Program-made: the position numbers and the translations under genes
Notes under the pieces: model-generated
Database searches by the model: none
What the model was told of the DNA's origin: nothing
Seen by the model: the letters and a program-made list of their open reading frames with translations, nothing else
Shown: positions 2,101-25,595 of the stretch, in pieces
How the letters are laid out: every line of letters begins with the position of its first letter
How positions within the stretch are numbered: position 1 is the first letter of the stretch
Source: Aureliella helgolandensis
GTDB lineage: Bacteria; Planctomycetota; Planctomycetia; Pirellulales; Pirellulaceae
Length of the DNA stretch: 64,000 bases
Assembly (NCBI RefSeq): GCF_007752135.1
Contig: NZ_CP036298.1
Span: 3,844,001 to 3,908,000 of the forward strand
Reading direction: 5' to 3'

Positions 2101-2216
2101 CCGGCTGTCGAAATAGTAACCCGCTGCGTAAGCAAGGAAAGGTGGTTGCCGCTGCAGGGCATTGGCGGACGCCAGCTTTGCGTCAAAATTCGAATTGCGA
2201 TTCAATCAATAGCCTG
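2101..2216 (-). repeat. 116-bp palindromic-end repeat, reverse-oriented copy
   Basis: It aligns along its whole 116 bp to the reverse complement of the copies at 15378, 19708 and 25480. Shared blocks include GAAATAGTAACCCGC, AGCAAGGAAAG, GTTGCCGCT and the closing inverted end. The left flank TTCCTTGCTCA is the same motif found inside the repeat itself, suggesting insertion into an older copy. Confidence 0.8.
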
Positions 2217-2502: not shown

Positions 2503-2618
2503 GCAGTCAAGGGGGAATGGTGACTTTGGATTTTAACACTGTGGTAGCGTCCCTTGGTGCCTTGTAGCGGTGACCACCTTTTCTTGCGCACGCAGTCGGT
2601 TACTATTTCGAAAGCGCG
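2503..2618 (+). repeat. 116-bp repeat, decayed copy
   Basis: Only the 3' three quarters match well: ATTTTAAC, GTAGCGTCCC, TGCCTTGTAGCGG, TTCTTGCGCACGCAG, GGTTACTATTTCGA. The 5' palindromic end is not recognisable. The downstream flank TCTCGCTGCGGGTT again resembles the repeat's own 3' segment. Confidence 0.55.
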
Positions 2619-8833: not shown

Positions 8834-9542
8834 TCGCCGACCGTGGATCGACAGCTTGAATACCCCACATCGCTGCGGATACGAACGAATGCACTTGAGT
8901 TGTTGAAAGTCGGTCTCCCAATACGACAAGCCATGTTTGGCAGCGACCACACGCCGATAAACCACTGTGTAAGCTTGGTAACTTACGACGACAAGCAAAA
9001 TCTGCAGGAACTGCCACCTTCTCAGGCGATAAGTCTTGCGACTATGTACGGGCGGGAACTCTGTTGCCTCAAGTTGGACGACGCTAGCTGCCCCTTCAAT
9101 TCCACGAACATCGCAGTGGTGTAAGCGAGAGTCCTGTTCGAAAGCCAAGCGGACAGCTGAGGACGGTCTCGCTCCATTGCCGAACCTACTGAAAACAACG
9201 ATTGAAAGAGCACTCCATGTTCTCGGAGTGGCTCCAACGCGATTCAGAGTGGATTTAAGCATTGAAATTGGGAACGCAAGTTGAGTAATGCTCAGTCGAC
9301 TGATGGGACGCGATCACAACAAGCCGGGAGCCCTGCGGCTGTTTCTTGGTGATTGCTAGCTTGTTGCAATTGGGAGGGGGGGACTTGTTGCTAAGGTTGC
9401 AGCCCACATCTGGCTGTAGCGGCGAGTACCTTTCCTTGCTCACGCGGCGGGGTGCAATGTTAACAAGCCGTCACGCGGCGGGTTTTAAGTAAGACAGACG
9501 GGTGCCGTTGGAGGATGGATGTGTGCGCGGATTCGTTAGGCA
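8834..9542. other. Intergenic region, no convincing gene
   Basis: About 700 bases between the kinase gene and a reverse-strand gene. Short open frames exist on both strands (for example 8843-9124 forward), but none has recognisable family features or a good ribosome site. A decayed copy of the 116-bp repeat occupies about 9355-9470. Confidence 0.5.
9355..9470 (+). repeat. 116-bp repeat, decayed copy
   Basis: The 3' part matches well: GGTTGCAGCCC, GGCTGTAGCGGC, ACCTTTCCTTGCTCACGCGG, ending AACAAGCCG. It is followed directly by TCACGCGGCGGGTTTTAAG, which is again the repeat's own internal sequence. The 5' palindromic end is eroded, so the left boundary is approximate. Confidence 0.55.
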
Positions 9543-15251: not shown

Positions 15252-15652
15252 GGGGCGTCGAGAGCGTCCCAGACAACTGCGCTATCTGAGGTGCTAAGAT
15301 TGGTGCAAAATGCCGCTGTTGGATTTGAAATGTGGACTTGGCATCCAGCCGGTTCGCTGGGGCACTCCAGGCCTTGACGGGCTGTTGATTTAATCGCAAT
15401 TTGAATTTTAATGCGGAGGTAGCATCCTTAATTGCCTTGTAGCGGAGGTTATCTTTCCTTGCTCGCGCAGCGGGTTACTATTTCAACAGCCCGTTGAGTT
15501 CTGGATCAATCCTGAATACGTGTTAGCATTCGTCCGCTTGGCCCCACGAGGTTGCCGCAAGACGCATAGACAACTAACACCGTACACCACATAAACCGTA
15601 CATCACTTACAAAGAATAATAGACTCACAAAGAATAATAGGGCAGCTTGATC
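15252..15652. other. Intergenic region with a full 116-bp repeat copy
   Basis: No gene. It contains the repeat at 15378-15493. Near the downstream gene there is an 18-base-period direct repeat (ACAAAGAATAATAG at 15609-15622 and 15627-15640) in the likely leader of the FAD oxidoreductase gene. Confidence 0.6.
15378..15493 (+). repeat. 116-bp palindromic-end repeat with TTGA flanking duplication
   Basis: A full copy. The ends CGGGCTGTTGA and TCAACAGCCCG are perfect inverted repeats of 11 bp. It is flanked by TTGA on both sides (15374-15377 and 15494-15497), consistent with a 4-bp target duplication. Unlike most other copies, the flanks do not resemble the repeat itself. Confidence 0.88.
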
Positions 15653-17755
15653 ATGAAGCGAATAATCTTTCTTTGCCTAGGGGTGATTCTGACTCCCACG
15701 GTTCGCGCCGAAGAGCGGAGCTATGACATCGTCGTCTACGGCGGGACCAGTGCGGCCGTGACAACGGCGGTCCAAGCTCGGAAGCTGGGGAAGACGGTTG
15801 CCATTGTCTGTCCCGAGAATCATTTGGGTGGCCTGACGTCCAGCGGGCTGGGGTGGACCGATTCGGGAAAGAAGGAGGCGATTGGTGGGATTAGCCGCGA
15901 CTTCTACCATCGCGTATGGAAGCACTACCAGAAGCCACAGGCGTGGCGTTGGCAACCACAGGCCGAGTTTGGCAATCGCAATCAAGGAGGGCCTTCCGCG
16001 CGCGGGGATGGTCGCACCATGTGGGTGTTTGAACCACACGTGGCGGAAGCAATCTTCGAAGAGTTGATCGCTGAACACGAGATTCCGGTATTCCGAGATC
16101 AGTGGTTGGATCGAACGCCTCTGGAGAACTCCGCCGAAAACTCGCAACGCACCGTCGGTGTGGTGATGGAAGGTCGTCGCATTAAGGCGATTGCGACCGT
16201 GGATGGAAATACCTACGTGGCGAGGGCCTTTGTCGATGCGACCTACGAAGGTGATCTCTTGGCTGCCGCCGGAGTCTCCTTCCATGTGGGGCGAGAGGCA
16301 AATTCCGTCTACGACGAACAATGGAATGGGATTCAGGTCGGCACGCTCCACCACAAGCACTGGTTTAATCACCCCGTGGATCCCTACCGTGTTGCAGGGG
16401 ATCCGGCGAGTGGTTTACTGGCTGGAGTTAGCGCAGAACCGCCTGGAGTGAAAGGGGAGGGGGACCATCGTGTTCAAGCGTATTGTTTTCGCATGTGCCT
16501 TAGCAAATCGCCCGAAAATCGCGTTGCATTTCCAAAACCAGATGGCTACGACGCGGATCAGTATGCATTGCTCTTGAGGGTTTTCGACTATGGCTGGCGG
16601 GAAGCGTTTGAGAAATTCGACATGATGCCGAATTACAAAACGGATACCAACAACCATGGCCCCTTTAGCACTGACTTCATTGGGGAAAATTACGACTACC
16701 CCGAGGCAAGTTACGAGCGGCGGGCTGAGATTGTAAGAGCACATGAGATCTATCAGAAAGGGATGATGTACTTTCTAGCCAATGATCCTCGTGTACCGGC
16801 TGAAGTACAGGAGAGCATGAATGAATGGGGACTGCCAACGGACGAATTCAAAGACAATGGCGGCTGGCCCCATCAGATTTATGTGCGGGAAGCACGACGG
16901 ATGATTGGTAGTTATGTGATGACGGAGCATGATTGTTTGGACAGTAAAGTGACACCAGATTCCATCGGTATGGGCTCGTATACGCTTGACTCCCACAATG
17001 TGCAGAGATACATCACTCCGGAAGGCTTTGTGCAGAACGAAGGGGATATTGGCGTCCACACACCACGCCCCTACGAAATCGCCCTAGGCGCCATTTTGCC
17101 TAAACGAGATGAGTGCGAGAATTTGGTCGTGCCGGTGTGCGTGTCCTCCAGCCACATCGCGTTCGGTTCCATTCGCATGGAACCGGTGTTCATGATCTTA
17201 GGACATTCGGCTGCAACGGTACTGCATCTAGCTTTGGAACGAGACCAAGCCGTACAAGAGGTTGAATACGCCAGCATACGCAAACAGCTGCTTGAGGATG
17301 GGCAAGTGTTGGAGCTGGAAGAACGCGGTGCGAACCGCTCACGAAGTTTGCCCGGAGTCGTCGTGGATGACCGGCAAGCGGAGTTGCTTGGCAATTGGCA
17401 AGGTTCCTCCACCAATCCGCCTTTTGTCGATTCAGGATACCATCACAATGGCAAAGTCGCCGACTCCCAGACGCGTGCCGTCTATCGAGCGGAGCTTGCC
17501 CCCGGCCGTTATGAGGTGCGATTATCGTGGTCTCAGAACGCCAACCGTGCCAGCAACGTTCCGGTCTTGATCCAACACAAGGATCAGAAGACGCGTGTCA
17601 GCATTAATCAGAAGACCAAACCGGGAGGCGACGGGCTTTTTCATTCGCTGGGGAAATTCGATTTCGGACCTTCGGCAGTGGTTGAGATCGGCACGCAAGA
17701 TACCGACGGGTACGTGATTCTGGACTCGGTCCAGTTCCTCCCGATCTCCGAATAG
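15653..17755 (+). CDS. Secreted FAD-dependent oxidoreductase with golvesin-like C-terminus
   Basis: The start is set at ATG 15653, giving 700 residues with signal peptide MKRIIFLCLGVILTPTVRAEE. A TTG two codons upstream is less likely. The FAD_oxidored domain begins at once after the signal peptide: SYDIVVYGGTSAAVTTAVQA, then NHLGGLTSSGLGWTD and GGISRDFY, with SLPGVVVDDRQAEL marking the switch to a golvesin-like beta domain (566-700). The first FAD enzyme at 10241 carries the same C-terminal module, but this protein lacks the N-terminal carbohydrate-binding-like domain. It is probably a periplasmic oxidoreductase of the planctomycete family often found near sulfatases and glycan-degrading genes. 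Substrate unknown. Confidence 0.86.
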   Translation: MKRIIFLCLGVILTPTVRAEERSYDIVVYGGTSAAVTTAVQARKLGKTVAIVCPENHLGGLTSSGLGWTDSGKKEAIGGISRDFYHRVWKHYQKPQAWRWQPQAEFGNRNQGGPSARGDGRTMWVFEPHVAEAIFEELIAEHEIPVFRDQWLDRTPLENSAENSQRTVGVVMEGRRIKAIATVDGNTYVARAFVDATYEGDLLAAAGVSFHVGREANSVYDEQWNGIQVGTLHHKHWFNHPVDPYRVAGDPASGLLAGVSAEPPGVKGEGDHRVQAYCFRMCLSKSPENRVAFPKPDGYDADQYALLLRVFDYGWREAFEKFDMMPNYKTDTNNHGPFSTDFIGENYDYPEASYERRAEIVRAHEIYQKGMMYFLANDPRVPAEVQESMNEWGLPTDEFKDNGGWPHQIYVREARRMIGSYVMTEHDCLDSKVTPDSIGMGSYTLDSHNVQRYITPEGFVQNEGDIGVHTPRPYEIALGAILPKRDECENLVVPVCVSSSHIAFGSIRMEPVFMILGHSAATVLHLALERDQAVQEVEYASIRKQLLEDGQVLELEERGANRSRSLPGVVVDDRQAELLGNWQGSSTNPPFVDSGYHHNGKVADSQTRAVYRAELAPGRYEVRLSWSQNANRASNVPVLIQHKDQKTRVSINQKTKPGGDGLFHSLGKFDFGPSAVVEIGTQDTDGYVILDSVQFLPISE

Positions 17756-17829
17756 ATCCATTGGGCCACCAGCAGGCATTCTGCTGAGTGGTCGCTGCTT
17801 CCTCCTCGTTTGTTCAATCGGAAATTCCC

Positions 17830-18177
17830 ATGAAGCTGCTGCTGGCCATTATTCAGCCAACGAAATTGCAAACCGTTCGTGAAGCTCTGGATCGCATTGG
17901 AGTGGAGCGGATGACGGTCTGCGACGCACTTGGATTCGGGCGGCAGCGCGGTCAAACGGAGAGTTATCGGGGAATGGAGTATCAAGTGCAGATGTTGCGC
18001 AAGGTCTCGCTCGAAATTTGGGTCAACGACGATTTTGTGGAGCGGACGATTGAGACGATTCAGCGGGCTTCGCGAACTGGCACCAATGGACATATCGGTG
18101 ATGGGAAAATCTTCCTTCTTCCGACCGAACAAGCGTTTTCGGTAGCGGATGGTACGGTCGGACCAGGGGCGGTTTAG
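17830..18177 (+). CDS. PII-family nitrogen regulatory protein
   Basis: A 115-residue protein from ATG 17830 (MKLLLAIIQPTKLQTVREAL). The T-loop GRQRGQTESYRGMEYQV keeps Tyr51, the residue uridylylated by GlnD in GlnB/GlnK. The signature near the end, HIGDGKIFLLP, matches the PII C-terminal pattern for ATP and 2-oxoglutarate binding, although three residues appear inserted before it (RTGTNGHIGDG compared with the usual TGKIGDG). PII proteins sense 2-oxoglutarate and ATP/ADP and bind partner transporters or enzymes. Its usual neighbour amtB is absent. Instead an MFS transporter gene starts five bases after the stop, so the transporter may be the partner (inference). Confidence 0.87.
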   Translation: MKLLLAIIQPTKLQTVREALDRIGVERMTVCDALGFGRQRGQTESYRGMEYQVQMLRKVSLEIWVNDDFVERTIETIQRASRTGTNGHIGDGKIFLLPTEQAFSVADGTVGPGAV

Positions 18178-18182
18178 ACGCA

Positions 18183-19439
18183 ATGATTTTCCGGTTTTGT
18201 CTGTATGGATTTCTAAAAAACCAACGTTATTTTGAGCCCTTCTTTATGCTGGCGTTGCTGGCACAGAATTTGGACTTCTTAACGATTGGAATCTTGTATG
18301 CGGTGCGATCGTTGACGATCAACCTGTTGGAGATTCCCTCGGGCGCGCTTGCAGATGGATTTGGGCGACGCAACACGATGATCGGTTCGCTGGTCGCCTA
18401 CATCGTCAGCTTCCTAACGTTTGCTTGGGCACCTCATCCCAGCTATCTGTTCGCAGCGATGGTGTTGTATGGGATTGGTGATTCCTTTCGGACTGGCACC
18501 CATAAGGCGATGATTTTTGAATGGCTGCGGTTGCAGGGCAGGGCGGATGAACGCACCAAGATTTATGGAATCACTCGCAGTTGGAGTAAATTTGGCTCTG
18601 CATTGAGCGCGATTTTGGCTGCCGTCTGCCTATTGCTCGGCGGTGACTTTCGCAGCGTCTTTCTGCTGGCGACGCTTCCCTATATCGCCAACGTCATCAA
18701 TTTGATCGGGTATCCGGCAGAGCTCGACGGGATGGTCTACCGCGAGAGTTTTCGCAGTACGCTCCGCGAAGTTGCGCGGAACCTCCGTAAGACATTATCG
18801 GATGCATGGAAGACCGCTAGCCTACGTCGCCTGATGGCCGAGTCGATGGCTTGGGAGGGAGTCTTTGGTGCGATTAAGGATTACCTCCAACCCGTTCTGG
18901 TCGCTGTGATGGTTGCCCGCTTTCTTCCCCGCTCCACCGATGGCTCTGCGACTGTGTCGCTGGAGGCATCGATGACCAATCCCTCTGTGGTGGCGTTGAT
19001 CGCTGGTGTTTACACCGTGTTGTTCTTTGCCAGTGGTTGGGCAAGTCGGCTGTCCCATCGCATCGTTTCCTGGTGTGGTTCCCAGGATGCTGCAGCACAT
19101 TGGTTGTGGAAATTCAACCTCAGTTTGTTTGTGGCGCTGTTGGTGGCTGACCTTGTGGGGGGCGTCATCGTGGTGGCTCTCTGTTTTGTCCTGCTGAGCG
19201 TTCTGCAGAATGCTTGGCGTCCCATCCTGATCAGCCGATTCGATGATCATGGGGCAGCCAGCCAAGGGGCCACTGTGCTTTCCATCGAAAGCCAAGCCCA
19301 ACGGCTAGCGACGTTTGCCATCGCTCCATTGGCGGGTTGGAGTGTGGATGTCGTAGCGCACCGTCACTGGCCCGGAGAGTTTTGGCCACTGGCGTTGGTC
19401 GGCGGACTGGCGGCAGCGTTTGCATTGCGTTTGCGGTGA
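18183..19439 (+). CDS. Major facilitator superfamily transporter
   Basis: A 418-residue protein with about 12 membrane helices. Between helices 2 and 3 it has the MFS signature as SGALADGFGRRNTMI (G-x-L-a-D-r-x-G-R-r). A long charged loop near the middle (YRESFRSTLREVARNLRKT) separates the two halves. It starts at ATG 18183, five bases after the PII gene, so the two are almost certainly co-transcribed and possibly translationally coupled. Overall the protein resembles poorly characterised MFS members. The substrate cannot be predicted, though pairing with PII hints at nitrogen- or carbon-status control. Confidence 0.85.
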   Translation: MIFRFCLYGFLKNQRYFEPFFMLALLAQNLDFLTIGILYAVRSLTINLLEIPSGALADGFGRRNTMIGSLVAYIVSFLTFAWAPHPSYLFAAMVLYGIGDSFRTGTHKAMIFEWLRLQGRADERTKIYGITRSWSKFGSALSAILAAVCLLLGGDFRSVFLLATLPYIANVINLIGYPAELDGMVYRESFRSTLREVARNLRKTLSDAWKTASLRRLMAESMAWEGVFGAIKDYLQPVLVAVMVARFLPRSTDGSATVSLEASMTNPSVVALIAGVYTVLFFASGWASRLSHRIVSWCGSQDAAAHWLWKFNLSLFVALLVADLVGGVIVVALCFVLLSVLQNAWRPILISRFDDHGAASQGATVLSIESQAQRLATFAIAPLAGWSVDVVAHRHWPGEFWPLALVGGLAAAFALRLR

Positions 19440-19618
19440 CAAGCCCAAGACTTCAACCAAATCGAATTTTCGGGTTGGTTGCGTGCCCTAGTGAACGTGT
19501 GGCTTAATGAAAACTTAGGCCGACGCGCAATGGATTATTGAGCTAAAAGTGTGGTTGCTATTACCGTGAAAGCAGCGATCCGAATCACGTGGTGCGTTGA
19601 CCACCCTTCCTTGCTCAT

Positions 19619-19853
19619 GGGGCTGTTGATTCAATTGCGTCTTTAGCGTGAGCGCGAAGCTCGCGTCCCCAAATATCCAGTTGCTTCGAACACCTGTCCT
19701 TGCTCACCGGGCTGTTGATTTAATCGCAATTTGAATTTTAACGCGGCGGTTGCGTCCCAAGCTGCCTTGTAGCGGCAACTATCTTCCCTTGCTCACGCAG
19801 CGGGTTACTATTTCGACAGCCCGTCACGCAGCGGGTTACTATTCACCAACCCG
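19619..19853 (+). repeat. Older 116-bp repeat copy interrupted by a younger one
   Basis: Bases 19619-19707 (89 bp) align to the first 89 bp of the repeat, from the GGGCTGTTGATT end to CCTTGCTCAC. Bases 19828-19853 (26 bp) align to its last part, GCAGCGGGTTACTATT to CCCG. The two parts add to 115 bp. Between them are a 4-bp TCAC duplication and the younger copy at 19708-19823. Confidence 0.7.
19708..19823 (+). repeat. 116-bp palindromic-end repeat with TCAC flanking duplication
   Basis: A full copy from CGGGCTGTTGA to TCGACAGCCCG, flanked by TCAC at 19704-19707 and 19824-19827. It differs from the 15378 and 25480 copies by a few substitutions only. Confidence 0.88.
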
Positions 19854-20094
19854 CCAGCTGGCCAGCAAGAAAAACACTGGGCTGGTCCGTGCCACTCCGC
19901 CCTAAAATCCAATTTGGTAGAAGATTGGGGGGGCTCGTCATTTTCCGCTTGCCGCGTACTATGCAGGCTCTAGCGCTTTCACCGCATCGCCCTTCTCAAC
20001 CATAAATCACGAGAGCGACTGCACCGAAGATACCTCCCGGGCGAGCCACCAAGCGAGTGCCGCTGCGTTTCCATCACCAGGTTTTCAAGCTCTC

Positions 20095-20472
20095 ATGCTG
20101 CTATTCCAAACCAAAGATCTTTTTTTCGTTCCAGTAGTCAAATCGGCGGCAGCCGCTCAGGGGTTGGAGTTGGCGACTGTGCTTAACTGCGATTCTCCCA
20201 AACTGGAGACGCTCGACGCCGCTCTCATTCGCATTTGTCTTGTAGATCTCAGCTCGGTGCCGGTCAGCAAAATTGCAGAGACGGCGGCCAGCTACCGAGC
20301 TCGCTTTCCCGCAGCTCAGCTCATCGGCTTTGGGCCGCACGTGCAGACTCAACGCTTAGAGGCAGCTCGAGCCGCTGGTTTTGACCACGTGTTGTCGCGT
20401 GGCCAGCTAGACCACCAGCTTGCAGATCTGTTGCCGGTGTGGCGCGCCGAGGCGGATGCCAAAGCCTCTTGA
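20095..20472 (+). CDS. CheY-like receiver-fold hypothetical protein
   Basis: A 125-residue protein. The pattern of alternating strands and helices, with ALIRICLVDLSSVPVSKI in the position of the receiver strand 3 and phospho-acceptor loop, QLIGFGPHVQTQRLEAARAAG as strand 4 and helix 4, and FDHVLSRGQLDHQLADLL as strand 5 and helix 5, suggests a response-regulator-like fold. The N-terminal acidic pair expected for Mg2+ binding is not evident, so it may be a non-phosphorylated pseudo-receiver. It has no output domain and no adjacent histidine kinase. Start ATG 20095, with no strong ribosome site. Confidence 0.5.
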   Translation: MLLFQTKDLFFVPVVKSAAAAQGLELATVLNCDSPKLETLDAALIRICLVDLSSVPVSKIAETAASYRARFPAAQLIGFGPHVQTQRLEAARAAGFDHVLSRGQLDHQLADLLPVWRAEADAKAS

Positions 20473-20721
20473 GAAGGCGTTGGCGCTAGGTGGAGACCAA
20501 GCCTGGAACTTCGTCGACTGCTTGCAGTCCGATTGGATTCGAGCGGGAAACTGATACAACATAGGTCCGCAAGTTCTTTTGTTTCCGGTCAGTGGATGCG
20601 GAGCGATTCCCAAGGGAAGAGTAACCGTGGCTCCAGCGGTTTTCTGATGGAAGCCACGGATATTGCGGGCCGTCACTGGCTAAACTTCACGCCTAGCAGC
20701 TAACTCTGGAAAGAATTCAAT

Positions 20722-21213
20722 ATGATGTGGGTTGATGTGGTCTCGCGGGTTGTCCATGTGGGCACTGCGATCGCTTTGGTTGGGGGAAGTGTTTTTACAC
20801 TTTTCGTGTTGTTGCCGGCTGCCAAACTACTTTCGCCGGAGGCCCATGAGACATTGGCCTCTGGCATTGGTGCGCGCTGGAAGCGTTTTGTGCACTTGGG
20901 AGTGCTGCTCTTCTTGGCGAGTGGTTTCTACAACTACTTCCAAGCCATTCCATTGCACAAGGGGGACGGGCTCTATCACGCGCTGGTCGGTACGAAGATA
21001 TTGCTGGCCTTGTTCGTCTTCTTTGTCTCTGCTGCTTTGGTGGGACGCAGTGCGGGCCTGCAGGCGATTCGCGATCAACGCGAAAAATGGCTGAAGATCC
21101 TTGTCTTGGTTGCGGCCATCATCGTTTGCATCTCTGGCTTTGTGAAGGTTCGTGGCACGACGTCGTTGGATGCCGCCGAGGTGACCGTGACGGAACCTGA
21201 AGTTGCCCCTTAG
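20722..21213 (+). CDS. Four-helix membrane protein, CopD-like
   Basis: A 163-residue integral membrane protein with four helices. The first, VVHVGTAIALVGGSVFTLFVLLPAA, contains the 'H.G.a...GG..f....l.P' motif of CopD/YndK-like proteins. The others are FVHLGVLLFLASGFYNYF, ALVGTKILLALFVFFVSAALV and ILVLVAAIIVCISGFVKV. The tail is acidic. Conserved His residues in helices 1 and 2 could bind copper or haem, but no direct evidence exists. Start ATG 20722, with GGAAAG about 9 bases upstream. It stands alone, convergent with the radical SAM gene. Confidence 0.6.
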   Translation: MMWVDVVSRVVHVGTAIALVGGSVFTLFVLLPAAKLLSPEAHETLASGIGARWKRFVHLGVLLFLASGFYNYFQAIPLHKGDGLYHALVGTKILLALFVFFVSAALVGRSAGLQAIRDQREKWLKILVLVAAIIVCISGFVKVRGTTSLDAAEVTVTEPEVAP

Positions 21214-21413
21214 CAGGCTGCATTGCAATGGCAGCTCGTGGGCACCGAACGGGTTGCAGGTTTGCTATTTGATCCGCACGAGGAAGCCTTGTGCGAGCGG
21301 GGCCCTGAGGCAACGGGATTACCCTGGGCAGCGAGAGCGCAGGTAGGCCACGAAGAAAACGACTGGGTGCGCCAGTGAGCGGCCAACCCTGAATGGATGC
21401 GGTGTTTGAATCT

Positions 21414-22403
21414 TTAGGTTGCGGGGGAGGGATGCTGGTAAGCACTTCCTTGAAAGGTGTTCCGCGCCTCCATGACGTTCACCAAACGCTGCTTGATGGT
21501 GCCTTTGTTCAAGCACCATTGGGGAGCGACCAGATTGCTGGGAGGCGCATCACCCGAAATGCGTTCGATCACCATATCTGGCGGAAGTCGTTCAAGAAAG
21601 TCAGCCAGCACTTCAATGTATTCATCCAGCTCCATCAACGTTACTTCGCCGCTGCGGACTTGATCGGCCAATTCAGTGCGCTCGACTGCATACAGATTAT
21701 GGATTTTAACAGCCGCAGGCTGCCAGGCGGCAACTTGGTCAGCAGTCGCCATCATCATTTCATGCGATTCTCCAGGTAGGCCGAGCATGATGTGCAGGCT
21801 GATTTCAAACTTCCGTCCTGTCACTCGCTGCATCGCCTCAACAGCCGCTGCGTGCCCATGGCCGCGATTCATCCACTCCAGGCTGGCGTCGTGGACGGTT
21901 TGGACCCCTAATTCCAGCGACACATACTTGTGTTCCGCAAACTCGTCGACGAGTTCGAGGACATCGTCGGGGACGCAGTCGGGACGTGTACCGATTACCA
22001 GCCCCACCACCCGCTCGTCTTCCAGAGCGGTTTCCCAGAGGGTCCGGAGTTTATCCAAGGGACCGTAGGTATTGGTTGCCGGTTGAAAGTAGGCTAAGAA
22101 TTTCTCAGTGTCGTAGCGTCGCCGCAGCCCGTCGATACCGCGCTGAATCTGAGAGGCAATTGCATCCCGCCGAACTCGCCGACTGGGACTGAACGAGCGG
22201 TTGTCGCAGAAGACGCACCCCCCCTTCGCTACCGTCCCGTCCACGTTGGGACAAGTGAACCCTCCATCCAAGCTGATTTTCTGGACTCTTCCACCGAATC
22301 GTTGCTTTAGGTAAAGATTCAGTGGATAGTATCGATGACCCAAACTCCGCCAGTCGACGGCTGGGAATTCAGAATCAGGGGCGCTGAAAATTGACGTAGT
22401 CAT
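21414..22403 (-). CDS. TIGR01212-family radical SAM protein (YhcC-like)
   Basis: A 329-residue protein. The iron-sulfur site reads GGFTCPNVDGTVAKGGCVFC (Cys51, Cys63, Cys66), the spacing characteristic of the TIGR01212/YhcC group. It is preceded by LNLYLKQRFGGRVQKISLD and followed by FLAYFQPATNTYGPLDKL and VGLVIGTRPDCVPDDVL, all conserved family blocks. The TIM-barrel core continues with YVSLELGVQT and ISLHIMLGLPGE. The family's reaction is not established, although it resembles Elp3-like enzymes. Start ATG 22403. It is divergent from the FHA gene with about 140 bases between them. Confidence 0.88.
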   Translation of the reverse strand: MTTSIFSAPDSEFPAVDWRSLGHRYYPLNLYLKQRFGGRVQKISLDGGFTCPNVDGTVAKGGCVFCDNRSFSPSRRVRRDAIASQIQRGIDGLRRRYDTEKFLAYFQPATNTYGPLDKLRTLWETALEDERVVGLVIGTRPDCVPDDVLELVDEFAEHKYVSLELGVQTVHDASLEWMNRGHGHAAAVEAMQRVTGRKFEISLHIMLGLPGESHEMMMATADQVAAWQPAAVKIHNLYAVERTELADQVRSGEVTLMELDEYIEVLADFLERLPPDMVIERISGDAPPSNLVAPQWCLNKGTIKQRLVNVMEARNTFQGSAYQHPSPAT

Positions 22404-22543
22404 TTGCTCGGCGTAAATTAGAAGGTACGGAAGCTACTAGAGCTCGACCCGAAATTCTAGTCGTTGAGACTCATTTCGATAGAGCTAAGAAACGCTCGGA
22501 GCGGAAATGTCTTATTTGAATAACGTAGTACTGGAGCGTTGTC

Positions 22544-22978
22544 ATGGCTGAATACGGTCAACTTGTACCCACAGGCGGGGGGGATAGCATTTCCCTTAAG
22601 AAAGACAAATTGTTGGTGGGTCGACGGGAATCGTGTGATATCGTGTTGCGCTTCGCTAACGTCTCCAGCCAGCATGCGTTGCTCACGCTCGAAGCCGGGT
22701 ACTGGTTCTGCAAGGACTTGGGGAGTCGCAATGGCACCAAGGTTGAAAATTTGCGAATCAGTCGCAAACGCTTGGATCCCGGTACCGTGATCGCTTTTGC
22801 CAAACATGCATATACGGTGGACTACGATCCGGAAGCCTTGGGTGCGTTTGGTGCTCCGCCGCCAGACGATGATCACATGGAAGAGGTCCTGCGTCGTGGT
22901 TTGATGGATCGTGCCGGTCTATCGCGGCGAGACGATAAAGACCCGTTTGCCAATCGCAACTTGGCGGATGACGATTAA
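22544..22978 (+). CDS. FHA-domain protein
   Basis: A 144-residue protein that is almost entirely one forkhead-associated domain (residues 5-95). Phosphothreonine-binding residues are in place: VGRRES (Gly26-Arg27), VSSQHA (Ser41, His44) and DLGSRNGTKV (Asn63-Gly64). The last 50 residues are acidic and low complexity, with no other domain. It probably reads Ser/Thr phosphorylation by one of the many kinases in such genomes; no specific partner is linked here. Start ATG 22544, with GGAG about 8 bases upstream. Confidence 0.87.
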   Translation: MAEYGQLVPTGGGDSISLKKDKLLVGRRESCDIVLRFANVSSQHALLTLEAGYWFCKDLGSRNGTKVENLRISRKRLDPGTVIAFAKHAYTVDYDPEALGAFGAPPPDDDHMEEVLRRGLMDRAGLSRRDDKDPFANRNLADDD

Positions 22979-23031
22979 TCCGTATCTTGTAGTCTTTACT
23001 CCGCTCGGCACCTCTCACTTTGGTTTCCTAG

Positions 23032-23355
23032 ATGAACTCCGCTCCGCGCATTGCACACACGGTCTATTTTTCCTTGCACGACAGCTCGCCCGCCAACGTC
23101 CAAGCACTGTTGGGCGAGTGCCAGAAATACCTCAACAACCACCCAGGACTTGAGTTTTTTGCAGTTGGCACACCGCATCCGGATTTGGACCGACCGGTCA
23201 ATGATAGAGCATTTGACGTTTGCTTGAACACCGTCTTTACCGACCTCGCAGCCCATGATGCTTACCAAATTGAGCCCAGGCATTTAGAGTTCATCGAACG
23301 CAACAAGCCGAGTTGGAAGCAAGTGCGCGTGTTCGACTCCAATTTAGAGGCCTAG
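23032..23355 (+). CDS. Dabb-family (stress-responsive A/B barrel) protein
   Basis: A 107-residue protein with the ferredoxin-like dimeric alpha/beta barrel pattern of Dabb proteins: IAHTVYFSLHDSSPANVQALL at the start, FFAVGTP, then FDVCLNTVFTDLAAHDAYQI and PRHLEFIERNKPSWKQVRVFD. The 'H.v.F.l' opening and the 'D...y..hp.H..f' segment are family signatures. Functions vary and are mostly unknown. It lies 53 bases after the FHA gene on the same strand and could be co-transcribed. Confidence 0.8.
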   Translation: MNSAPRIAHTVYFSLHDSSPANVQALLGECQKYLNNHPGLEFFAVGTPHPDLDRPVNDRAFDVCLNTVFTDLAAHDAYQIEPRHLEFIERNKPSWKQVRVFDSNLEA

Positions 23356-23692
23356 GGGCTGTGGAGTGGCCCGCAGCAAAGCGAACCGGGGCTTGTTCCG
23401 CGGGGGACGCCCCAGGCGAAGCCGCTGCCCAGATGAGGTGGAATGCTGCGCCGGATCTTGTCGACGCGTTGAATCAGGTTGCTGGCTTACGCTGAGTGGG
23501 CGCGGACGGCTGGTTTGAGGGCGTTGCTGGTTTTGCCGCGAGGGTAGCTTCCTGAATTGTCCGGTAGCGTTGACTAGCTTCCTTGCTTCCTTGCTTACCG
23601 GGCTGTCGATTTAATAGCAATTTGAATATTAACGCGGAGGTTGCGTCCCAAACTGCCTTGTAGCGGCAACTATCTTTCCTTGCTCACGCAGC
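23356..23692. other. Intergenic region, repeat-bearing, left of the insertion sequence
   Basis: No gene. From about 23507 there is a degraded older repeat copy (CCGCGAGGGTAGC, GTCCGGTAGCGTTGACTA, TTCCTTGCTTAC) that leads straight into the younger repeat copy at 23599. Confidence 0.55.
23599..23692 (+). repeat. 116-bp repeat, left part, split by insertion sequence
   Basis: The first 94 bp of a copy whose remaining 22 bp continue at 25228-25249, giving exactly 116 bp once the insertion sequence and one AGC are removed. Left flank TTAC (23595-23598), right flank TCAC (25250-25253): a 3-of-4 match for the expected target duplication. Confidence 0.88.
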
Positions 23693-25224
23693 TAGGCTGT
23701 GAAGTTTTTTCACCAACGGACTCTTTTGGTATTCCAACCACGAAATTTTTTCGAATTGGCGGCTGAAAGTCTTACTTGGTCGGATTGTTGGCCAGCAAGT
23801 TAGCTCGTGTCCATCATGCTCATCTCTTCGAGTTGTGTTATTTCTCAACCAAGCGGTTGCCTTGCAACTGCTTAGCTTGCCAAGGCCCCCAGGTTTACCA
23901 TGCGTGTGAAGTTAAAGGCCACGGCATGCCATAGCGCTACCGCTTTGACCTTCACCAGTCCTCGAACTTTGAATTGCCGAAGGTTCCGATTGCGGCAGTC
24001 CGCATTGGGAAATTCGGCAACCGACGGGCGCGTCTTGTAAAGCTCTTTGTATTCCTCTTTGGCCATTCTCGCGCGAAACGCTGTGTATTCGTCGCTTTCG
24101 CCAGGTTGCTGCGCGTGAGGATCTTTGCCTTTGCTTTCCAATACCGATCCACGGGGGATCGTGGAGACGACTTCGGTCCCTTTAGACTCCACGGTCTTAA
24201 CATCGCCCTTGGTTGCGTAAGCGGAATCGACCAATTGCGTCTTGGGTGTCTTGTCGTAAGTTGAGCACACTTTCTCGTGCATTGGTGCCATTTGGCCACT
24301 GTCAGTTCCCGAGTTGATAACATCGACAGCGACTATTACTCGCGAGTCAGCATCGGTTGCGAACTGGACGTTGAAGGCCGGATCGAAGCCACCATTGGCC
24401 ATCTTCATATTACGGGCGTCAGGGTCCGTAGTGCTCACGCGAGTCTTTTCGCCGTCACCTTTTCTCCGAGACTCGCGCTGCTTACTAAGCTCCTCAAACT
24501 GTCGCAAAGCCTCATCTAATCGCTCTTGACGCTCACGCGATGCTCGTTCGACTGCCGCTTGGCGACGTGCGTCTCCATCGGAACGATCGGATTCGTTCTC
24601 GGATTCTTTCTTCAATCTATCTACGTGAGCCTGAGCCTGCTGCTGCAATGACTCAAGCGTCGGCTTGCGGCGAAACGAACTACTGCCTGCACTAGCCCGA
24701 ACGCGCATTCCGTCTTGGGCAATGGTCTCCAGGGGCACCAGACCTTGGGCGACCAACGAGGCAACCGTGTCAACGAGCGTCTTCTCCAAGAATGCTCCGT
24801 TCTCCACTCGAAAGTCGCTCAACGTGTGATAATTGACCGTGACATTTCCGAGCGTCCATAAATAGGCTATGTCCGTCTCGCATCGGCGACCAAGTTCTCG
24901 GGCTGTGCCGATGCCATCCAAGGTTGCCAGAAGCCACAGTGAAACCAGTATCTCCGGCGCAATACTATTGCGGCCAACGGTGCTCTTGGTGACAACGATC
25001 TTTTCATACAGAGGTTCTAGGTCCAACGTTTTGACAAACGACCAGACAATGCGAGCACGATGGTCGCGCGGAAGCATATCTTCAAGTGAAAGCATGTGCA
25101 TTTCCACTTGAATACGATGGGGGCGGGAAACACGAGCAAGCTGCGATGGTTTTTGAGTATTCATGCTATAGTTGTAGCGCCTAAAATTAATTTGCAAACC
25201 ACTTGGCTAAAAATTCACAGCCTA
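23693..25224 (-). mobile_element. IS1182-family insertion sequence, 1532 bp
   Basis: The ends are inverted repeats TAGGCTGTGAA (left, from 23693) and its complement TTCACAGCCTA (right, to 25224). Similarity continues through a T-rich stretch. AGC lies at both borders (23690-23692 and 25225-25227), a 3-bp target duplication confirmed by the exact reconstruction of the host repeat. It contains a single intact transposase gene on the reverse strand. Confidence 0.88.
23872..25164 (-). CDS. IS1182-family transposase
   Basis: ATG at 25164 gives 430 residues (MNTQKPSQLARVSRPHRIQV). A TTG start 11 codons upstream is possible. The N-terminal DUF772-type domain reads LEDMLPRDHRARIVW, then IAPEILVSLWLLATLDGIG, TARELGRRCETDIAYLW and YHTLSDFRV. 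The DDE core follows: IAQDGMRVRA (first Asp), a charged helical insert, FNVQFATDADSRVIVAVDV, LVDSAYATKGDVK (second Asp) and a C-terminal NRNLRQFKVRGLVKVKAVAL block before LWHAVAFNFTRM. The gene is uninterrupted, so the element may be active. Confidence 0.92.
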   Translation of the reverse strand: MNTQKPSQLARVSRPHRIQVEMHMLSLEDMLPRDHRARIVWSFVKTLDLEPLYEKIVVTKSTVGRNSIAPEILVSLWLLATLDGIGTARELGRRCETDIAYLWTLGNVTVNYHTLSDFRVENGAFLEKTLVDTVASLVAQGLVPLETIAQDGMRVRASAGSSSFRRKPTLESLQQQAQAHVDRLKKESENESDRSDGDARRQAAVERASRERQERLDEALRQFEELSKQRESRRKGDGEKTRVSTTDPDARNMKMANGGFDPAFNVQFATDADSRVIVAVDVINSGTDSGQMAPMHEKVCSTYDKTPKTQLVDSAYATKGDVKTVESKGTEVVSTIPRGSVLESKGKDPHAQQPGESDEYTAFRARMAKEEYKELYKTRPSVAEFPNADCRNRNLRQFKVRGLVKVKAVALWHAVAFNFTRMVNLGALAS

Positions 25225-25227
25225 AGC

Positions 25228-25249
25228 GGGTTACTATTTCGACAGCCCG
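25228..25249 (+). repeat. 116-bp repeat, right part of the split copy
   Basis: GGGTTACTATTTCGACAGCCCG completes the copy begun at 23599-23692. Confidence 0.85.
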
Positions 25250-25479
25250 TCACGCGGCGGGGTACGATTGGTACCGTCCCTGGTAGCATGGCCCCCCGGG
25301 CCGTGAGAATCACCCAACCCGTGCGTCGCCCCAATCGTTGACGCTAGCAAGCCGCAATTCGCAATCTCACACCGCGAGTGCCGCTCTTTCTAACGCTGCC
25401 TCCTAAGGCATTTTTCAGGCTAACGGCCAAAGCTGAATCCTGAACCATTCTGAAGCGGCGATCACCTGTCCTTGCTCAC

Positions 25480-25595
25480 CGGGCTGTTGATTTAATAGCA
25501 ATTTGAATTTTAACGCGGAGGTTGCGTCCCAAACTGCCTTGTAGCGGCAACTATCTTTCCTTGCTCACGCGGCGGGTTACTATTTCAACAGCCCG
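25480..25595 (+). repeat. 116-bp palindromic-end repeat, full copy
   Basis: Runs from CGGGCTGTTGA to TCAACAGCCCG. The internal sequence is nearly identical to the copy at 23599. Flanks are TCAC (25476-25479) and TTAC (25596-25599), a 3-of-4 match. Confidence 0.88.

Follow-up and report, generated by a model that had tools for sequence, protein, structure and literature searches.

Planctomycetes host REPs of the published class-3 TnpA_Y1 group, which have a CnGA 5' foot and are organised in REPtrons, in which genes for HUH enzymes featuring NHVH or NHIH and Y----Q motifs are flanked by hairpin repeats recurring in the genome (available parts of PMC6006769). Insertion sequences that target REPs, such as ISPsy8 (PMC1525189) and ISPpu9 (PMC8450116), are already known from the accessible text of these reports. 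Likewise known is QMITE2 of Coxiella burnetii, a MITE that holds a REP and is hit via this REP by IS1111 (accessible passages of PMC10969869).

Here we describe a 116-bp repeat that is a real non-autonomous mini-transposon (MITE) of a planctomycete chromosome. As in QMITE2, the MITE holds a REP and is hit by an IS via the REP. However, the QMITE2 REP is of the GTAG type, and the accessible passages on QMITE2 are silent on the insertion of the MITE itself in REPs, whereas here 41 of 75 copies are so inserted, at a palindromic target. The hosts, the enzyme motifs and the flanking hairpin repeats of class-3 REPtrons are shared by the system described here, but the genome under study differs from what the available parts of PMC6006769 describe in holding the repeats without a clear enzyme, in the MITE and in tandem arrays. 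The IS found here, called ISx, resembles ISPsy8 and ISPpu9, being found in the REP in 15 of 17 copies. In the accessible text, those IS have other hosts and other REPs, whereas here the REP hit by ISx also receives a MITE, at a different base position. No earlier description of a planctomycete MITE or of the REP motif was recognised in the open-licence literature searched, and the combination of a palindromic target and a self-carried REP site in a MITE was not found there either, including the available parts of PMC3733652 and PMC6749651. The new part is the self-carried landing site of the MITE in the REP. The finding connects DDE-driven MITEs with HUH-driven REPs, two kinds of small bacterial repeats that have mostly been treated separately.

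Copies of the 116-bp repeat in the window and in the genome

The window, i.e., the whole 64,000-nucleotide stretch analysed, is part of a single-contig 8.44-Mb genome, placed in Pirellulaceae (Planctomycetota). The following features were identified, in window positions:

2101-2216, minus strand: diverged 116-bp MITE copy without target duplication
2525-2618, plus strand: old diverged MITE relative, approximately 76-78% across MITE positions 23-116
9362-9473, plus strand: older REP-containing repeat, related to the MITE's right half
15378-15493, plus strand: 116-bp MITE copy outside REP, exact TTGA duplication (15374-15377 and 15494-15497)
19708-19823, plus strand: 116-bp MITE copy in a REP half-site, exact TCAC duplication (19704-19707 and 19824-19827)
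19787-19805, minus strand: REP half-site within the copy at 19708 (MITE positions 80-98)
23599-23692, plus strand: first 94 bases of a split MITE copy, interrupted by ISx
23693-25224, minus strand: ISx, 1,532 bp, ends TAGGCTGTGAA, inserted where the MITE copy carries its REP half-site, 3-bp duplication AGC
23872-25197, minus strand: ISx transposase, 441 aa, with DDE_Tnp_1, DUF772 and DDE_Tnp_1_6 domains (Pfam)
25225-25249, plus strand: last 25 bases of the split MITE copy; the AGC shared with 23690-23692 is the 3-bp duplication of ISx
25480-25595, plus strand: 116-bp MITE copy in a REP half-site, flanked by TCAC and TTAC (3 of 4 bases equal)

An earlier note on this DNA had listed five 116-bp copies, and all five were found where it placed them. 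The copy at 23599 is one 116-bp unit once ISx and one AGC are removed, and is flanked by TTAC and TCAC, equal at 3 of 4 bases. The flanking duplications also agree with the note: those of the copies at 15378 and 19708 are exact, those of the copies at 23599 and 25480 match at three of four bases, and the copy at 2101 has none. The GTTGC...GCAAC pair described for the interior does not hold as a general feature; for instance, the copy at 15378 has GGAGGTT in place of GGCAACT. The note had overlooked that the copies at 19708, 23599 and 25480 sit in the REP, that the MITE itself bears a REP half-site, further examples of which occur at 15457-15475 (one base changed) and 25559-25577, and that the insertion in the copy at 23599 is an IS landing in the same repeat.

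The 11-base MITE end CGGGCTGTTGA has 222 exact matches in the genome, as opposed to 15 for the reversed control. Copies were accepted when both ends had at most 2 mismatches, the length was 95-140 bp and the score to the consensus was at least 0.62; the resulting set of 75, drawn from the matches listed, is a minimum, as copies missing an end or near a stretch end were left out. Of these 75 copies, 64 measure exactly 116 bp; the remaining ones measure 115 bp (4 copies), 117 bp (4), 120 bp (2) and 131 bp (1). Target duplications of 4 bp are exact in 49 copies, differ by one base in 12 and are absent in 14, while shuffling the partners yielded 5.0 exact duplications on average and at most 11 in 1000 shuffles. 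Other duplication lengths are rare (2 bp in 3 copies, 3 bp in 1, 5 bp in 1, and 6-10 bp in none). In an alignment of 25 rows, the terminal inverted repeats pair in almost every row. The family is short, of near-constant length, with inverted ends, a fixed-length target duplication and no coding capacity for a transposase; variable length without duplications, the outcome that would have spoken against a MITE, was not seen. When 119 genomes of the family were queried with the MITE, matches came from its own genome and, as short REP-side stretches, from 3 others. The 22-base right end of the MITE had 0 matching stretches in a wider collection of genome contigs, from which the own genome is possibly excluded.

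Target palindrome and insertion into the REP

The palindromic site used by the MITE is also present in the REP family, part of which the MITE carries. The duplications are surrounded by the symmetric palindrome CCC-N3-GC-[TNNA]-GC-N3-GGG, as derived from a matrix built from the 22 exact-duplication copies outside the REP. The symmetrised information over 24 bp amounts to 10.7 bits, whereas 500 sets of randomly chosen window sites gave 1.4 on average and 2.4 at most. In leave-one-out tests, 20 of these 22 sites stay within the top 0.33% of window positions; the other two rank at 0.68% and 3.2%. The REP sites with exact duplications, which did not contribute to the matrix, behave similarly, with 26 of 27 within the top 0.41% and the remaining one at 4.1%.

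The 41 copies inserted in the REP, assigned with a tolerance of 6 mismatches over 20 scored bases, are found at one base position, AACCCGCNGC(GTGA)GCAAGGA. They occur in either orientation (17 in one and 24 in the opposite), as a symmetric target predicts. Since MITE positions 80-98 are themselves a REP half-site, copies nest. For 73 copies, the two flanks were joined and aligned to the own-genome loci examined; 33 match across the junction, 9 of them without gaps, and 40 have no match. The matching "empty" sites are paralogous, i.e., within the same genome, and five places were checked. Among them, in genome positions, are:

1171674: matches 1170997-1171115 (97%)
1342876: matches 3554525-3554644 (93%)
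2365876: matches 2365459-2365544 (91%)
630827: matches 939110-939200 (99%), within the MITE copy at 939114

The last case shows one MITE sitting in another, because the flanks of the copy at 630827 match inside the copy at 939114.

The nearly uniform length, the inverted ends, the 4-bp duplications and the uninterrupted paralogous sites all fit a non-autonomous DDE-type transposon and bear out the MITE reading of the note; the DDE chemistry itself is suggested by the duplications and ends. Very probably, the MITE is a non-autonomous DDE-type transposon, the transposase of which has a 4-bp stagger and prefers CCC-N3-GC-[TNNA]-GC-N3-GGG. The mobilising enzyme would cut its target with this stagger, and a dimeric transposase might make the symmetric choice of target. 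The MITE lands at one base of the dispersed REP half-site, and an unrelated IS uses the same repeat at another position. The weak points of this model are that no autonomous partner was found in the families and end matches searched and that 14 of 75 copies have no duplication, and 12 of 75 match at only three of four bases. The two outlying target sites (4.1% in the REP, 3.2% outside it) and the 40 of 73 copies lacking a matching paralogous site also count against it.

The REP family and its relation to TnpA_Y1 genes

The REP ACCCGCNGCGTNAGCAAGG occurs in 255 exact copies in the own genome, with 0 in the control. Sixty-six of these places were sorted: 21 fall within the 75 MITE copies, 31 are clustered and 14 stand alone. 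The REP arrays examined consist of units of 119, 121, 133, 226 and 241 bp (91-97% matches). Among 60 genomes, the exact pattern was found 83 times in G013, a genome of the same genus as that of the window, 11 times in G039 and once in three others, and 54 genomes have none. A wider pattern matched 8 of 244 genomes of the phylum, with 82 matches in G271 and 16 in G233. High REP copy numbers were therefore observed in the own genome, G013, G039, G271 and G233, where controls gave 0 matches. Among the 80 stretches listed out of 84 that match the motif, some belong to Rhodopirellula europaea, to R. solitaria and to MAG SJ586 of the Pirellulaceae, and REP palindromes are formed in loci of G013, G233, G271, G354 and G364.

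In G271, two REP palindromes are located one on each side of a Y1 gene, and the encoded protein, used as query, found matches in 9 of 12 genomes, some of them short pieces only. We analysed 19 of 20 Y1 loci (L244, the second piece of the L236 gene, was dropped), using a REP pattern chosen after some loci had been viewed; the loci flanked on both sides lie in genomes other than the own one. REP variants flank the gene on both sides in 9 of the 19 loci and are absent in 10 when up to 2 mismatches are allowed (0 control sites); at up to 3 mismatches, they are found on both sides in 12, on one side in 1 and on none in 6 (3 control sites). Five open Y1 proteins (L231, L232, L233, L235 and L241), inspected by eye, carry NHVH, W[TA] and Y----Q motifs, the exceptions being one NHIH and one W followed by N; these motifs fit class 3 as described in the available parts of PMC6006769. 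Because variants flank HUH (Y1) genes in other planctomycetes, the REP is most likely that of the class-3 TnpA_Y1 group. Having Y1_Tnp is not in itself a mark of REP-bearing genomes, as it was found in 17 of 18 genomes, with or without the REP.

No clear class-3 gene was found in the own genome; its class-3 match is a 63-aa piece with 37% identity and an internal stop, with one REP-like site on one side only, at 3 mismatches. The REP is absent from all flanking stretches examined of seven own-genome Y1 matches. The REP may derive from a class-3 TnpA_Y1 (HUH) system no longer intact in this genome. Two other Y1 genes (L212 and L214) lie beside different repeats, visible as repeated peptide letters in nearby ORFs, which are perhaps another REP system.

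The REP half-site in the 116-bp unit and the REP variants beside Y1 genes in other planctomycetes would both be expected if the unit were REPIN-like, with a TnpA_Y1 (RAYT) enzyme copying it in single-stranded form and the flanking repeats being part of the unit. We consider this very unlikely, as exact 4-bp duplications accompany 49 of 75 copies, including 22 sites outside the REP, the target is symmetric and the own genome has no clear class-3 gene. The duplications at non-REP sites weaken this explanation in particular; Y1 enzymes of the TnpA_Y1 kind are not known to make target duplications.

Candidate mobilising enzymes and other REP carriers

A DDE-type MITE transposon calls for a partner with MITE ends, and none was found among the PF01609, PF05598 and PF13586 families of the own genome. 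The PF01609 profile gave 45 matches. The ends of the 470-, 445- and 501-aa families and of ISx were viewed, and none are MITE ends; for a single 461-aa copy and a 117-aa fragment, the near-exact 10-base MITE end was not seen as a pair. PF13586 gave nothing and PF05598 gave ISx alone (17 matches, all at 444-codon ISx frames). MITE-end matches, from the first 3.97 Mb of the genome apart from a single end at 3937844, revealed no partner. Among the matches listed, two end pairs with other spacing were resolved as a tandem REP array (2341060/2342242) and as a MITE split by ISx (3553019/3554669). The 470-aa DDE IS (11 matches, L161-L171; ends GGTGTCSGACAC) is often found beside TTTT/AAAA runs and terminator-like hairpins. 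The MITE transposase may have been lost from the genome, or may belong to a family outside those searched.

ISx is present in 17 copies, each 1,532 bp in length. Fifteen are inserted in the REP at CCCGCN|GCNGCGT, so that most copies occupy one REP position, and the other two (L182 and L184) match the REP partly. The 3-bp duplications are exact in 15 of the 17 copies and differ by one base in two. ISx might be taken as the autonomous partner of the MITE, as its ends TAGGCTGTGAA resemble CGGGCTGTTGA, it uses the same repeat and no other DUF772 family turned up in the genome (all 17 matches are ISx). Yet its duplication is 3 bp rather than 4 bp, its base position in the REP is different, and 14 of the 15 copies in the REP have the same orientation (L176 is opposite), whereas the MITE has no strong bias, which makes the partnership very unlikely. 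That the 116-bp unit is a conserved structural RNA or a regulatory element of constant length has a negligible probability and was rejected. The consensus does fold at -32 kcal/mol with paired ends, but RNA-type covariation is absent (two-sided changes in 1 of 32 predicted pairs; covariation term -0.35), so that the structural RNA named in the note as a refuting outcome was not seen; no Rfam match was obtained in the window at gathering threshold (0 matches) and the duplications mark insertions.

For the MITE transposon, we tentatively suggest a role as the vehicle of a REP whose HUH transposase is gone. Insertions in the REP might bring fresh targets, and both families might spread together, because the MITE carries the REP half-site as a landing pad. 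Should the MITE carry and renew the site in which it lands, repeat families could expand by nesting within repetitive DNA and outlast the enzyme by which they were first dispersed. With a defined palindromic target, the missing transposase also becomes open to testing.

Other REP carriers were observed in related genomes. In G013 (MAG SJ586), an element of 231-236 bp with inverted AACCCGGATTATTCAT ends is present at ten places (L260, L267, L269, L274, L286, L290, L296, L300, L301 and L332), with a REP palindrome seen in several, and an 82-bp version occurs at L283 and L328; it seems to be another MITE-like REP carrier. Loci L207 and L208 of G233 contain REP palindromes bounded by inverted CTGGACAGCGCCA-like ends and are perhaps a third such carrier. 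If the G013 and G233 elements hold, orphan REPs would repeatedly have persisted by being borne on MITEs. At L255, L256 and L258 of G354, the letters after the REP palindromes are GGCTGTCGAAAT-like and resemble the right end of the MITE, perhaps as a relative or an ancestor of it. REP arrays approximately 180 bp apart were also seen in CALISD loci (e.g., L320 and L323) of a MAG named Granulosicoccaceae, a gammaproteobacterial name, for which misnaming, contamination or transfer are possible.
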